From NCBI RefSeq assembly GCF_004363095.1, contig NZ_SNYO01000004.1, positions 186,001-250,000 of the forward strand: 64,000 nucleotides of DNA, in the 5' to 3' direction. Shown one piece after another: positions 1 through 64,000 of this stretch. Source of the stretch: Actinomycetospora succinea (GTDB lineage Bacteria > Actinomycetota > Actinomycetes > Mycobacteriales > Pseudonocardiaceae). The notes beneath the pieces were generated by a model. That model saw only the letters and a list, made by a program, of their open reading frames with translations. It was not told the origin of the DNA and ran no database searches. Made by a program: the position numbers and the translations under genes. How positions within the stretch are numbered: position 1 is the first letter of the stretch; each line of letters starts with the position of its first letter.

Positions 1-362
1 GACAGGAACCCGAACGGGACGCCGAGGTCGACGAGCGCGTCCGCCACGCGGGCCATCAGCGCCCGCCCGACGCCCCGGCCCTGCCGGGCGGGGTCGACCG
101 CGACGAGCCCGACGTCGCCGACCAGCACCTCGCCGCCGTCGGGGAGCGCCCGCAGGAACCGGCGGACGATCCCGGCGTGGGCCACCGGGGCACCGGCGTC
201 GTGGGCCACGATCCGCCGCTCGGGACGCGCGCCGGCCCAGCTCCGCCCGTCGGCGAACCGGTCGGGCCGGTCGTACGCCCGCGCCAGGAGGCGGGCCAGC
301 GGACCGTGCGCCGCGTCGTCGAGGTCGGTCTCCCACGACACCGACCAGGTCAGGTCCGTCAC
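1..362 (-). CDS. NodA-like N-acyltransferase (GNAT fold), 3' end cut by window edge
   Basis: The visible 120 residues begin at a GTG and run off the window edge, so the C-terminus is missing. The family moves an acyl group onto a free amine; rhizobial NodA puts a fatty acyl chain on the deacetylated end of a chitin oligosaccharide. Seen here: an N-terminal WSVSWETDLDDA stretch, GRSWAGARPE at residues 39-48, VRRFL at 66-70, the cofactor-loop-like RQGRGVGRAL at 93-102 and LGVPFGFL at 113-120. These match, in order and spacing, the conserved blocks of NodA as I remember them (SRSWAGARPE, LRRF, LGVPFGFG). It diverges from mshB across about 60 bp. A generic GNAT acetyltransferase is the alternative, but the WAGARPE block favours NodA. 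The natural acceptor is unknown. Confidence 0.75.
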   Translation of the reverse strand, partial: MTDLTWSVSWETDLDDAAHGPLARLLARAYDRPDRFADGRSWAGARPERRIVAHDAGAPVAHAGIVRRFLRALPDGGEVLVGDVGLVAVDPARQGRGVGRALMARVADALVDLGVPFGFL

Positions 363-411
363 GGGAGTGAGTCTCGCCCCACCCCGCCCGGTCGCGTGCC
401 CCCGGACGGCC

Positions 412-417
412 TACCGT
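412..417 (+). promoter_or_regulatory. -10 box (TACCGT) of mshB, leaderless arrangement
   Basis: TACCGT fits the TANNNT -10 consensus and lies 7 nt before the GTG at 425, so the transcript should begin at or next to that start codon. It overlaps the alternative GTG at 416, which argues against 416 as the start. Confidence 0.5.
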
Positions 418-424
418 GCCCCGG

Positions 425-1285
425 GTGAGCCCCGGACCGCTGCTGCTCGTCCACGCCCACCCGGACGACGAGACGATCACCTGCGGCGGCGTGATGGCCC
501 TGGCCACCGGCGCGGGCATCCCGGTCACCCTCGTGACCTGCAACCGTGGTGAGGCGGGCGAGGTGATCCCGCCCGGCCTGCGGCACCTGTCCGGCGATGC
601 GCTCGGCGAGTACCGCGAGGGCGAGCTCGCCCGGGCCTGCGCGGCCCTCGGCGTCACCGACCACCGCTGGCTCGGCGAGGTCGGGGCGTGGCGGGACTCG
701 GGGATGGTCCGGGTCGGCGAGGGCATCCTCGCGGCGGCCCCGGAGTCGGTCGACGACGACGCCCTCGCCACCCCGCGCGGCTTCGAGGCGCAGGTCAAGG
801 CCCTGGTCGAGGTGATGCGCGAGGTGGAGCCGCGCGTGGTGGTGACCTACGACGAGCGCGGCGGCTACGGCCACCCCGACCACGTGCGCGCGCACGACAT
901 CACGCTCGCGGCGGTCGACATCGTCGACCCCGACGCCACGGTGATCACCGTCGTCGCCACCGCCGCCGCGCACGACGAGGTCGACGCCGGCCTCGCCGTC
1001 CTGCGCCGGCGGTCGTGGCTGCCGGTCCCGGTCCCGCCCGTCGAGGACCTGCCGACGGTGCCCGACGCGACGATCACCACCCGGGTCCCGCTCGGCGCCG
1101 CCCGCGTCGCCAAGCTGGCCGCGCTGCGCGCCCACGCCACCCAGATCACCGTCCACGACGACGGCAGCGAGCCCCCGGCCTACGCGCTGTCCAACGACCT
1201 CGCCCAGCCCGTCCTGCCCGCCGAGTGCTTCGTGCACCTCCGCGGCCCCGCGAGCGCCCCCGACGACCTGTTCCCGCCGTCGTGA
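425..1285 (+). CDS. mshB: Mycothiol biosynthesis deacetylase MshB (PIG-L/LmbE family)
   Basis: MshB removes the acetyl group from GlcNAc-inositol to give GlcN-inositol, the substrate that MshC links to cysteine in mycothiol synthesis. The 286-residue protein has HAHPDDE at residues 10-16 (zinc ligands and catalytic Asp) and GHPDH at 149-153 (third zinc ligand), plus the MshB-like WRDSGM block and C-terminal AAHATQ and ALSNDLAQPVLP. Length agrees with the roughly 300-residue mycobacterial enzyme. The GTG at 425 is preferred over 416 because it gives the family's usual N-terminus and a -10 box lies just upstream. It overlaps the next gene by GTGA. A general PIG-L deacetylase is possible, but the C-terminal blocks favour MshB. 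Confidence 0.88.
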   Translation: MSPGPLLLVHAHPDDETITCGGVMALATGAGIPVTLVTCNRGEAGEVIPPGLRHLSGDALGEYREGELARACAALGVTDHRWLGEVGAWRDSGMVRVGEGILAAAPESVDDDALATPRGFEAQVKALVEVMREVEPRVVVTYDERGGYGHPDHVRAHDITLAAVDIVDPDATVITVVATAAAHDEVDAGLAVLRRRSWLPVPVPPVEDLPTVPDATITTRVPLGAARVAKLAALRAHATQITVHDDGSEPPAYALSNDLAQPVLPAECFVHLRGPASAPDDLFPPS

Positions 1286-60442: not shown

Positions 60443-60890
60443 CCGCTGACCGTCGCGTCCGCGGTCGCGGGGCGCAAGCGAGCCCTCGATCCGGTCGCGG
60501 AGCGCGACGATCCCTGCTGATCACGCTCCGCCACCGTCGAGAGGGCGCGGAGAGCGCTCCTCGGCGGGCCGCGACCGCTCCCGGACGGCGTGTCGCGGGG
60601 CGGCTCCCGGAGCCTCCACCGCGGCGGACGCCCGGGCGGCGTGGGGCACCGGTGTGGTCATCGCCTCCCTGCTCAGGGTCCGTACGACGCAGGGGTGGCG
60701 GAGGAGCCGGGGACGAACCGGACACCGCGGGACGAGGCGGCACGGAAGGGCCTGCCCGAGGGCGGTGACGGGGGTCGCGAGGTACCCACGGCGCGTGACC
60801 AGAAGGGCGCCGGAGATATCGTCTGACACACGACGAGGTGACGGCCAGGACACGGTCGCACCGCCGTGGGTGGGGAGGGGGCAACGCACG
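60443..60890. other. Region between kinase gene and fusion glycosyltransferase gene
   Basis: About 450 bp. It contains one weak minus-strand small ORF (60521-60661) and, on the plus strand, TATCGT (60817-60822) as a -10 candidate. GGGGAGGGGG at 60873-60882 is a likely ribosome binding site for the fusion gene. Confidence 0.35.
60521..60661 (-). CDS. Possible 46-residue hypothetical protein
   Basis: ATG 60661 has AGGGAGG immediately upstream, but the spacing of 2 nt is poor. The peptide is Ala/Pro/Arg-rich (MTTPVPHAARASAAVEAPGA at the start) with moderate GC3 bias and no family. Listed only as a possibility. Confidence 0.2.
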   Translation of the reverse strand: MTTPVPHAARASAAVEAPGAAPRHAVRERSRPAEERSPRPLDGGGA

Positions 60891-63800
60891 GTGACGACTA
60901 CGGGCACGTCGGCGAGCACGCGGACGAGTCGGCCGCCCCGCCGCTGGGGCATCTGGACGATGACCGTCGTCCTCGCGGTCATGGTGCTGACGGTGCTCAC
61001 CGTGTCGGGCCTCGTGAACTCCGGCATCGGCAACGACGCGCACGCCCGCCCGCCCGAGGGGCACGACGGCGTGCCGGCGGCGATCAGCGCCGGCGGCCCG
61101 ATCATCGACGCGCGCACCGACCCCGTGCGCTCGGCGCGGCTCCCGGACCGCACGGTCGCCCTCACGTTCGACGACGGCCCCGACCCGACGTGGACCCCCG
61201 AGGTCCTCGAGGTCCTCGCGCGCCACCGCGTGCCGGGCACGTTCTTCGTCGTCGGCTCGATGGTCGCCCGGCACCCTGACATGGCGCAGCGCGTCGTCGC
61301 GGCGGGCTCCGAGATCGGCGTCCACACGTTCACCCACCCCGACCTCGCCGGCGTCTCGCAGTGGCGCCGCGACCGCGAGATCGCCGACACCGAGCTGGCG
61401 ATCGCCGGCGCGACCGGCATCTCGACCCACCTCGTGCGCCCGCCGTTCTCGTCCACCTCCGACGCCCTCGACGACCCGGGCTACGGCACCGTCGTGGCCG
61501 CGGGCCGCGCCGGCTACGTCACGGTGCTCACCGACGTCGACGGCGAGGACTGGCAGCGCCCCGGCGTCGACGCGATCGTGCGCAACGCGACCCCGCAGAA
61601 CGGCGCCGGCGCGACCGTCCTGCTGCACGACGCCGGCGGTGACCGCGCCCAGACCGTCGCCGCGCTCGACAAGCTGATCCCGCAGCTCCAGGCCCAGGGC
61701 TACCGGTTCACGACCGTCAGCGACGCCGCGGGCCTCGGCCCCCACGGCCAGCCCGCGCCCCCGCGCGACCGCATGGTCGGGCAGGCGCTGCTCGCGACCG
61801 TCGGTGTCGCCCAGGGCCTCGTGACCCTCATGCAGATCGCGCTGATCGGCGTCGGCGGGCTGGTCATCCTCCGCCTGATCGTCATGGTCGTCGTGGCCCG
61901 CCGCCACGCCCGGCGACGCCAGGACCCGGCGTTCTCGTGGGGCAGGCCGGTGACCGAGCCGGTGTCGGTGGTCGTGCCCGCCTACAACGAGGCCGAGAAC
62001 ATCGAGGCGACCGTGCGGTCGATCCTCGCCAACGACCACCCGCTCGAGGTCGTGGTCGTCGACGACGGCTCCACCGACGGCACCGCCGACCTGCTCGAGG
62101 ACCTCGCCCTGCCGCGGGTGCGCGTCGTCCGGCAGGCCAACGCGGGCAAGTCGGCGGCGCTCAACCGCGGCGTCGCGGCGGCGAAGAACGACCTCATCGT
62201 CATGATCGACGGTGACACGATCTTCCAGCCCGACACCGTCGCGCAGCTGGTCGCGCCGTTCGCCGACCCGGACACCGGCGCCGTCGCCGGCAACGTGAAG
62301 ATCGCCAACCGCGACCGGCTGATCCCGCGGATGCAGCACCTCGAGTACGTGGTCGGCTTCAACGTCGACCGGCGCGTGCAGGACTCGTGGGGCTCGATCT
62401 CGACGATCCCCGGCGCCGCGGGCGCGTTCCGCCGCGAGGCCGTGCAGGAGGTCGGCGGGCTGTCGTCGGACACCCTCGCCGAGGACACCGACCTCACCAT
62501 CGCGCTCGGCCGCGCGGGCTGGCGCGTCGTCTACAACGAGCGCGCGCTCGCGTGGACCGAGGCGCCGGTGAGCGCCGGGCAGCTCTGGCGCCAGCGGTTC
62601 CGGTGGAGCTACGGGACGATGCAGGCGCTCTGGAAGCACCGCCGCGCCCTGCGCGAGCGCGGCGCGTCCGGGCGCATGGGGCGCCTCGGCCTGGCCCACA
62701 TCGGCGTCTTCCACGTCGCCCTGCCGCTGGCCGCGCCCCTGGTCGACCTGCTGTTCGTCTACGGCCTGCTCTTCGGCGACCCCGCGGTGGCGCTGATGCT
62801 GTGGGGCTCGATGCTGCTGCTCCAGCTGATCGCGGGCGTGCTCGCGTTCCGGATGGACGGCGAGCCGCTCGCCCCGCTCTGGGCGCTGCCGGTGCAGCAG
62901 CTGATGTACCGCCAGCTCATGTACGTCGTGCTCGTGCAGGCGGTGATCAGCGCGCTGACCGGTGCCGGCGTGCGCTGGCAGAAGCTGCAGCGCGTCGGGG
63001 CCGTGGCCGAGCACCTCCAGGCCCCGAAGGCCGACGGCCGCTCCCGCCCGGCCGCCGACCGGCTGCCCGCACCCGCGGTGACGCGCGGCCCGGCGCCCGA
63101 CGACGCCCCGTCGTCCGAGATCCCGGTCGCTCCCGTGGCCGAGTCCGAGAAACCGAAGGGCGGCGGCCGCGAGCGCTGGCTCGACCTCCTGCGGGCGATC
63201 GCCCTGCTGCGCGTCGTCACCTACCACGCGTTCGGCGGCGGCTGGATGAGCATGGTGTTCCCGTCGATGGGCGTGATGTTCGCGCTCGGCGGGTCGCTCA
63301 TGGTCCAGTCGCTGCGCCGCGGCGAGGCCCTCGACGTGATCGGGCACCGCCTGCGCCGCCTGCTGCCGCCGCTGTGGTTCTTCGGGCTGCTGGCCGTGCC
63401 GGTGATGCTCTGGCACGGGTGGGCCGGGCAGGACGCCGACGGGACGGTCGCGTCGCCGCTGGTGTGGTCGGACCTCCTGTACTGGCTCTTCCCGCTGGTC
63501 GATCCGCCGGGCAGCGACTGGGGCGCCGACGCCGTCGTCGGCCTCTGGTACATCCGCGCCTACCTGTGGTTCGTGCTGCTCACCCCGGTGATGCTGTGGG
63601 CGTTCCGTCGCCGTCCGGCGGTGGCGCTGGCGGTGCCGCTGGTGGTCGTCGGTCTCGACGCCTTCCTCGGGTCGCCGCTGGGCGAGTGGGGCGCGATCGG
63701 CCCGGTCCTCGTCGACGGCGCGACGTTCGCGGCGTGCTGGATGCTCGGCTTCGCCCACCGCGACGGCACGCTGCGCCGCATCCCGGTGCTCGCGGCGTGG

Positions 63801-64000
63801 GGCGCGGCGGCGGTGCTCGTCGCGGGCGGCCTGTACTGGGCGTTCAGCCACCCCGCCGGCGACGACGGCGTCGACCTCAACGACATCCCGTTCGCCCAGG
63901 CGCTCGTGTCGTTCGGCGCGGTGCTGCTCGTGCTGCGCCTGAACCCGCAGGTCGCGTGGCTGGAACGGGTGCCGCTGCTCGGGCGCCTCGTGACCGTGGT
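60891..64000 (+). CDS. Trimodular polysaccharide deacetylase / family 2 glycosyltransferase / acyltransferase 3 fusion, 3' end cut by window edge
   Basis: At least 1036 residues with no stop before the edge. Residues 22-45: transmembrane helix. Residues 85-260: NodB-type CE4 deacetylase with TFDDGPDP at 92-99, metal His145 and His149 (GVHTFTHPDL), RPPF at 183-186 and LLHDAGG from 244. Residues about 285-325: membrane helices. Residues 355-620: processive GT2 (NodC/PgaC-like) with VVPAYNEAE at 361-369, DDGSTDGT from 391, DGD at 440-442, EDTD at 531-534 and QRFRW at 568-572. Several membrane helices and a Pro-rich linker follow. From 760: acyltransferase-3 domain (WLDLLRAIALLRVVTYHAFG, His779). 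It should synthesise, deacetylate and O-acylate a GlcNAc-type polymer. Streptomyces MatB-like deacetylase-GT proteins are the nearest relatives I recall. Confidence 0.85.
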   Translation, partial: MTTTGTSASTRTSRPPRRWGIWTMTVVLAVMVLTVLTVSGLVNSGIGNDAHARPPEGHDGVPAAISAGGPIIDARTDPVRSARLPDRTVALTFDDGPDPTWTPEVLEVLARHRVPGTFFVVGSMVARHPDMAQRVVAAGSEIGVHTFTHPDLAGVSQWRRDREIADTELAIAGATGISTHLVRPPFSSTSDALDDPGYGTVVAAGRAGYVTVLTDVDGEDWQRPGVDAIVRNATPQNGAGATVLLHDAGGDRAQTVAALDKLIPQLQAQGYRFTTVSDAAGLGPHGQPAPPRDRMVGQALLATVGVAQGLVTLMQIALIGVGGLVILRLIVMVVVARRHARRRQDPAFSWGRPVTEPVSVVVPAYNEAENIEATVRSILANDHPLEVVVVDDGSTDGTADLLEDLALPRVRVVRQANAGKSAALNRGVAAAKNDLIVMIDGDTIFQPDTVAQLVAPFADPDTGAVAGNVKIANRDRLIPRMQHLEYVVGFNVDRRVQDSWGSISTIPGAAGAFRREAVQEVGGLSSDTLAEDTDLTIALGRAGWRVVYNERALAWTEAPVSAGQLWRQRFRWSYGTMQALWKHRRALRERGASGRMGRLGLAHIGVFHVALPLAAPLVDLLFVYGLLFGDPAVALMLWGSMLLLQLIAGVLAFRMDGEPLAPLWALPVQQLMYRQLMYVVLVQAVISALTGAGVRWQKLQRVGAVAEHLQAPKADGRSRPAADRLPAPAVTRGPAPDDAPSSEIPVAPVAESEKPKGGGRERWLDLLRAIALLRVVTYHAFGGGWMSMVFPSMGVMFALGGSLMVQSLRRGEALDVIGHRLRRLLPPLWFFGLLAVPVMLWHGWAGQDADGTVASPLVWSDLLYWLFPLVDPPGSDWGADAVVGLWYIRAYLWFVLLTPVMLWAFRRRPAVALAVPLVVVGLDAFLGSPLGEWGAIGPVLVDGATFAACWMLGFAHRDGTLRRIPVLAAWGAAAVLVAGGLYWAFSHPAGDDGVDLNDIPFAQALVSFGAVLLVLRLNPQVAWLERVPLLGRLVTV

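Follow-up and report, generated by a model that had tools for sequence, protein, structure and literature searches.

A NodA-superfamily acyltransferase gene paired with mshB in Actinomycetospora succinea and distinct from symbiotic nodA

The window analysed here is a stretch of 64,000 nucleotides from the soil actinobacterium Actinomycetospora succinea (contig NZ_SNYO01000004.1; in our coordinates G000:C4:186001-250000, from a genome of 6.47 Mb in 23 contigs that is 96.9% complete), and it opens with the 5' part of a nodA-like (PF02474) gene for a putative acyltransferase of the GNAT type. This part occupies positions 1..362 on the minus strand, starts with a GTG codon, comprises the first 120 of 184 codons and remains open past the window edge. 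We recovered the complete gene from the same genome (G000:C4:185808-186362(-), 184 aa, protein P0001, locus L011:7808-8362), of which the final 64 codons and the stop lie beyond the window, within G000:C4:185808-186000. On its 5' side, a spacer of 53 bases (363..415) between the start codons as called separates the gene from the divergent mshB (416..1285, plus strand), encoding the GlcNAc-inositol deacetylase in the biosynthesis of the antioxidant mycothiol. On its 3' side, the gene and an oppABCDF-like transporter operon of the opposite strand lie end to end (names given from reading the sequences). A preliminary description of the window had proposed both the identity of mshB and its adjacency to a nodA-like gene, and both are borne out: the MshB protein scores 247.5 bits on TIGR03445 (cut-off 224.35).

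The full-length protein matches the Pfam NodA profile PF02474 with 122.8 bits (E 1.7e-35, profile positions 2-193 of 195, gathering cut-off 22), and the 120-aa piece encoded in the window reaches 108.9 bits by itself (E 3.4e-31). The best Pfam profile other than NodA is a general GNAT profile at 40.6 bits; in total, three general GNAT profiles are above their cut-offs. The assignment to the NodA superfamily made in the preliminary description is thus confirmed, and in this profile search the full protein does not score better to an unrelated GNAT family. The sequence blocks on which the assignment had been based also stand, as RSWAGARPE, RRF and VPF align in order with rhizobial NodA. Overall, the window protein is 30-34% identical to five rhizobial proteins, with RSWAGARPE, RR, VPF and the C-terminal WP residues common to both.

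Judged by its sequence, the window protein is nonetheless not a symbiotic NodA. On TIGR04245 and NF001974, the two NCBIfam models for symbiotic NodA as found in rhizobia and Frankia, it obtains 90.9 and 88.3 bits against cut-offs of 175 and 295, whereas two rhizobial NodA proteins reach 332.8-339.4 and 338.1-349.6 bits. The reverse is seen for the general GNAT profiles, which are passed by all five scanned actinobacterial proteins but matched by neither of the two rhizobial ones at E<=0.1. No NodB or NodC match is found in the 14-kb locus around the nodA-like gene, nor does the 96.9% complete genome contain a NodB or NodC above the family cut-off (best scores 189.6 against 240 and 97 against 550, respectively). 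By contrast, nodB adjoins nodA in Rhizobium tropici and in both Frankia-like loci of our collection. When NodB and NodC of R. tropici were searched against 72 loci (10 of these being mshB loci that lack a NodA-like gene), NodB was found solely in the two loci of family f87 and NodC in none. The likening of the window protein to the NodA of Nod-factor synthesis is therefore not supported, with the symbiotic signature absent and no nodB or nodC partner adjoining. One Frankia-like genome also carries, some 6 kb away from its intact nodA, a second copy broken by a TGA stop (L176, G881:C119:13888-14457).

The contrast with symbiotic NodA can be followed down to single residues. Fourteen columns are invariant over 17 actinobacterial and five rhizobial proteins, among them W42, R46, P47, E48, R50, R67, R68, W171 and P172, and these nine are held in all 42 non-symbiotic actinobacterial rows as well as in all 14 symbiotic rows. 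The window protein further carries a complete Q-x-x-G-x-G coenzyme A (CoA) loop (QGRGVG, residues 94-99) and the string FYRAAGW (129-135). Its motif tyrosine, Y130, is present in 42/42 non-symbiotic rows (35/42 when the strict string FYxxxGW is demanded) and missing in 14/14 symbiotic rows; according to passages of a kinetic study (PMC8072286), GNATs usually employ a tyrosine as their general acid. At position 94, where the loop begins, all 42 non-symbiotic rows have Q, H or R, whereas 12 symbiotic rows have E and the remaining two Q, and the segment that follows differs too. Five more distant rows, which were counted apart, all retain FYxxxGW and a Q or R at position 94, with the RPE block missing in most. 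The acyl donor of NodA itself is acyl carrier protein (ACP) loaded with the acyl chain. Most simply read, the non-symbiotic enzymes would be CoA-dependent GNATs of the ordinary kind, whose features symbiotic NodA would have lost.

Phylogeny agrees with this separation. The tree contains 61 rows: 37 of the relatives collected (the best 80 of 210), the two proteins of the own genome and 22 of 36 further rows. The 43 relatives omitted are all rhizobial, and the 14 further rows omitted consist of 13 copies of loci among the collected relatives and the stop-interrupted L176; weak, partial or repeated matches (such as L017, L030, L032, L044, L048, L170, L172-L175 and L177) were kept out as well. Symbiotic NodA (12 rhizobial rows and two of family f87, the latter probably Frankia-like since nodB adjoins nodA in both) forms one clade with support 100/99 on a long stem of 0.9 changes per column, in a tree that does not include the NodA of Streptomyces bottropensis, which according to Persson et al. 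2015 (PMC4447401) is the sister of that of Frankia. The window protein falls outside this clade and within a clade of seven Actinomycetospora rows (support 100/100). A second NodA-like copy in the own genome (contig C3, L012:6706-7293, 195 aa, 49% identical to the window protein) belongs to a separate Actinomycetospora clade. The deep forks among the actinobacterial groups are weakly supported, so that the tree does not settle their relation to the symbiotic clade, and L111 and L110 sit on long branches.

The predicted structure of the orthologue from Actinomycetospora lutea adopts a GNAT fold whose closest matches among solved structures, along the full length, are the aminoglycoside 2'-N-acetyltransferases AAC(2')-I (AAC(2')-Ia, -Ic and -Id). 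These share the GNAT CoA motif, and the motif tyrosine is aligned. A model of rhizobial NodA (predicted local distance difference test, pLDDT, of 76.7) is also nearest to AAC(2')-I, although six of the 18 rows with which it was built are actinobacterial and may pull its shape towards the actinobacterial one. The kinship with AAC(2')-I is distant: identity in the structural alignments amounts to 17-20%, the glutamate of the AAC(2') motif GYVEA is a glycine in the window protein, and no AAC family cut-off is passed (25.6 against 400 and 17.8 against 350 bits for the AAC(2') models of NCBIfam).

Matches to PF02474 are unevenly distributed. None is found in 14 control genomes, compared with 6 of 296 genomes for the phylum, 11 of 394 for the class (9 above cut-off), 33 of 297 for the family and 14 of 18 for the genus, with the own genome counted in each of these four samples; 264 of the 297 family genomes have no match. 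Matches to the whole NodA profile are few in these genome samples, so it is not a common match among GNATs. The preliminary description, in which NodA is best known from rhizobia and a few Frankia, is not supported as to rarity, given the matches in 33 family genomes and the NodA-like proteins across Actinobacteria reported in 2015 (PMC4447401). The highest score on PF02474 seen for a non-symbiotic protein, 231 bits, belongs to L055 (G373).

Within the genus, mshB is above cut-off in 17 of 18 genomes, and the nodA-like gene adjoins it in seven of these 17 (G000, G296, G298, G299, G302, G303 and G311), always divergently. A tree of mshB from the 17 genomes splits into groups of 10 and 7, and all seven pairings belong to the group of 10. 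Three genomes of the same subclade, G307, G308 and G310, lack the gene: here the oppF-mshB gap measures only about 110-125 bases and contains no match. A decayed copy at this site was thus rejected, as the gap is too short for the gene, though a short remnant would escape detection. The 'core locus' of the preliminary description consequently holds for mshB itself and not for the nodA-like gene, which occupies the site in 7/17 genomes and in one of two subclades.

Outside the genus the pairing is not seen at all: mshB is near none of 21 NodA-like loci with flanks of up to 1.5 kb and near none of the 38 non-genus loci among 60 wider ones (the two sets overlap in genomes). Among the 19 non-genus family genomes with a PF02474 match, 16 had flanks that could be examined and three, all weak matches, did not. 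Linkage of mshB and nodA across the family, and with it a conserved linkage as a sign of the mycothiol pathway, is therefore rejected, the pairing being confined to one Actinomycetospora subclade. Given that the oppF-mshB-ferredoxin block is syntenic in this subclade with or without the nodA-like insert, it might be argued that the pairing represents one insertion kept by descent. As evidence of a common pathway the mshB link does not count, suggestive as it is.

The gene itself appears to be maintained and does not look like a relic. In the mshB-linked group the ratio of nonsynonymous to synonymous substitution rates (dN/dS) is 0.27-0.63 over 21 pairs, and the open frame is kept in all seven genomes. 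No sign of a recent foreign gain was found: GC content (0.79) and GC content at third codon positions (GC3, 0.98) match those of orthologues, paralogues and neighbours, to which the comparison was limited.

Neighbours of NodA-like genes elsewhere vary by lineage (some neighbour calls come from a simple codon-usage caller, which missed some NodA-like genes; these were placed from search coordinates). For the paralogous type (e.g. L070, L081, L068 and L072), a regulator of a GntR/UTRA cluster lies directly upstream on the same strand in four of eight loci (G300, G303, G305 and G309, not G000, G297, G304 and G306; UTRA was checked with Pfam for G305). The neighbour is a phosphopantetheinyl transferase in Actinoalloteichus and a biotin synthase gene in Pseudonocardia sp. 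73-21. In Streptomyces sp. CBMA291, the gene immediately upstream of the NodA-like one (L103:2713-3945) encodes a methyltransferase domain resembling that of NodS (28.7 bits on PF05401, where the cut-off is 24, and 28% identity to NodS of R. tropici), and no nodB or nodC match lies nearby; Streptomyces zinciresistens (L109) has at that place a shorter frame belonging to the same cluster, with no Pfam match. In Pseudonocardia humida (L097:3030-4552) and Pseudonocardia lacus (L101:3018-4540), an upstream double-GNAT gene overlaps the NodA-like gene by 4 bases. The best NCBIfam match of the P. humida protein is MshD, below cut-off (82.9 against 163.1), and the P. lacus protein clusters with it. 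Two distant NodA-like genes, in Pseudonocardia sp. TRM90224 (L111:3989-5340) and in G373 (L055:7591-9565), each adjoin a ThiG-like gene (identified by eye for L055).

At the far end of the window (about 60654-64000, plus strand, open past the end) lies a gene for a fused protein of polysaccharide deacetylase, family 2 glycosyltransferase (GT2) synthase and acyltransferase-3, of which the NodB-like and NodC-like parts are each below the family cut-off. Full-length matches to the 975-aa query are found in 16 of 18 Actinomycetospora genomes, including G301 and G312, which have no NodA-like match. Because the fusion is this widespread in the genus, its co-occurrence with the nodA-like gene is uninformative and was discarded as an indication that the two act in one pathway.

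Computation establishes the family membership, the GNAT fold near AAC(2')-I (for the A. lutea orthologue), the CoA motif with its tyrosine, the dN/dS below 1 and the mshB pairing. Our favoured reading, to which we give about an even chance, is that of a non-symbiotic actinobacterial single-domain GNAT of the NodA superfamily that most likely serves as a CoA-dependent 2-N-acyltransferase for a small molecule of the glucosamine type. The donor would be an acyl-CoA, carrying an acetyl or other short acyl group, and probably not an acyl-ACP; Y130 would protonate the leaving thiolate, and the acyl group would be moved onto the amino group at position 2 of such a molecule, which the cell would make or import. 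Glucosaminyl-inositol (GlcN-inositol), the product of MshB, would be one acceptor candidate among several. An amino-sugar acceptor fits the nine residues invariant from W42 to P172, which, being shared by symbiotic and non-symbiotic rows, may indicate a common acceptor pocket. The same residues speak against the possibility that the acceptor is a non-sugar amine (a peptide, polyamine or amino acid) and that the likeness to NodA reflects mere common descent, which we regard as unlikely.

The product proposed in the preliminary description, N-acylated GlcN-inositol, would either undo or cap that step of mycothiol synthesis or give an acylated pseudodisaccharide. It is suggested by the divergent mshB neighbour in seven Actinomycetospora genomes including that of the window, and the link gains some interest from two further observations: the structures of AAC(2')-Ic, nearest in fold, once led to the suggestion of a role in mycothiol synthesis (as related in passages of a review, PMC6363676), and a double GNAT, MshD-like in P. 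humida, overlaps the NodA-like gene in Pseudonocardia. Nonetheless, none of the NodA-like loci examined beyond the genus lies near mshB, one inherited insertion could account for the adjacency, and a true MshD, above its cut-off, is encoded elsewhere in the own genome. Mycothiol is generally made by the family, most genomes of which have no PF02474 match. Given a pairing in one subclade and none beyond the genus, this product is possible but improbable. An AAC(2')-I-like detoxification of aminoglycosides or other foreign amino sugars by acetylation would explain the nearest solved structures, and the patchy distribution and varied contexts fit an accessory gene; the low structural identity, the scores far below the AAC(2') cut-offs and the replacement of the GYVEA glutamate by glycine make it distinctly unlikely. 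Finally, the enzyme might act as NodA does, using acyl-ACP to N-acylate a de-N-acetylated chitin-type oligosaccharide delivered by unlinked fusion proteins, so that lipo-chitooligosaccharide-like molecules would result. The 14 shared invariant residues and the presence of a deacetylase/GT2/acyltransferase-3 fusion in the same window (roughly 60.7-64 kb) are in line with such a scheme, but the genome has no NodB or NodC over cut-off, the fusion also occurs where NodA-like proteins do not, and the window protein has the GNAT motifs of the CoA type, absent from symbiotic NodA, and falls outside the symbiotic clade, which leaves this scheme very unlikely.

Non-symbiotic NodA-like proteins are already known, since Persson et al. 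described them across Actinobacteria in 2015; that paper (PMC4447401) infers an actinobacterial origin of nodA and tentatively suggests a role in the cell wall. The proteins described there resemble ours in belonging to the same superfamily and phylum and in being NodA homologues outside nodulating bacteria. Its main text names no Pseudonocardia- or Saccharo- genus (the species list of the supplement being outside this scope) and contains none of the terms mycothiol, mshB, aminoglycoside, GNAT, acetyltransferase or tyrosine, and at the level of titles we found no publication linking NodA to mycothiol, GNAT or aminoglycoside acetyltransferase. The present analysis adds the subgroup linked to mshB, the contrast in motifs and the structural kinship with AAC(2')-I.

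The NodA step makes Nod factors amphiphilic, and an actinobacterial source of NodA has been proposed (PMC4447401). If the non-symbiotic members are CoA-dependent glucosamine 2-N-acyltransferases akin to AAC(2')-I, the ancestral reaction could be put to a direct test, and the transition to the symbiotic enzyme would map to two sequence motifs. A bolder idea, which we consider a long shot, is that a NodA-superfamily enzyme was recruited beside mshB in one Actinomycetospora subclade and acylates GlcN-inositol at its free 2-amino group, acting as a switch in mycothiol synthesis or opening a side branch of it. It would then also be a living example of the CoA-dependent amino-sugar acyltransferases that gave rise to symbiotic NodA through loss of the CoA motif and of the catalytic tyrosine. 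Should GlcN-inositol indeed be the acceptor, mycothiol synthesis would have a new branch.
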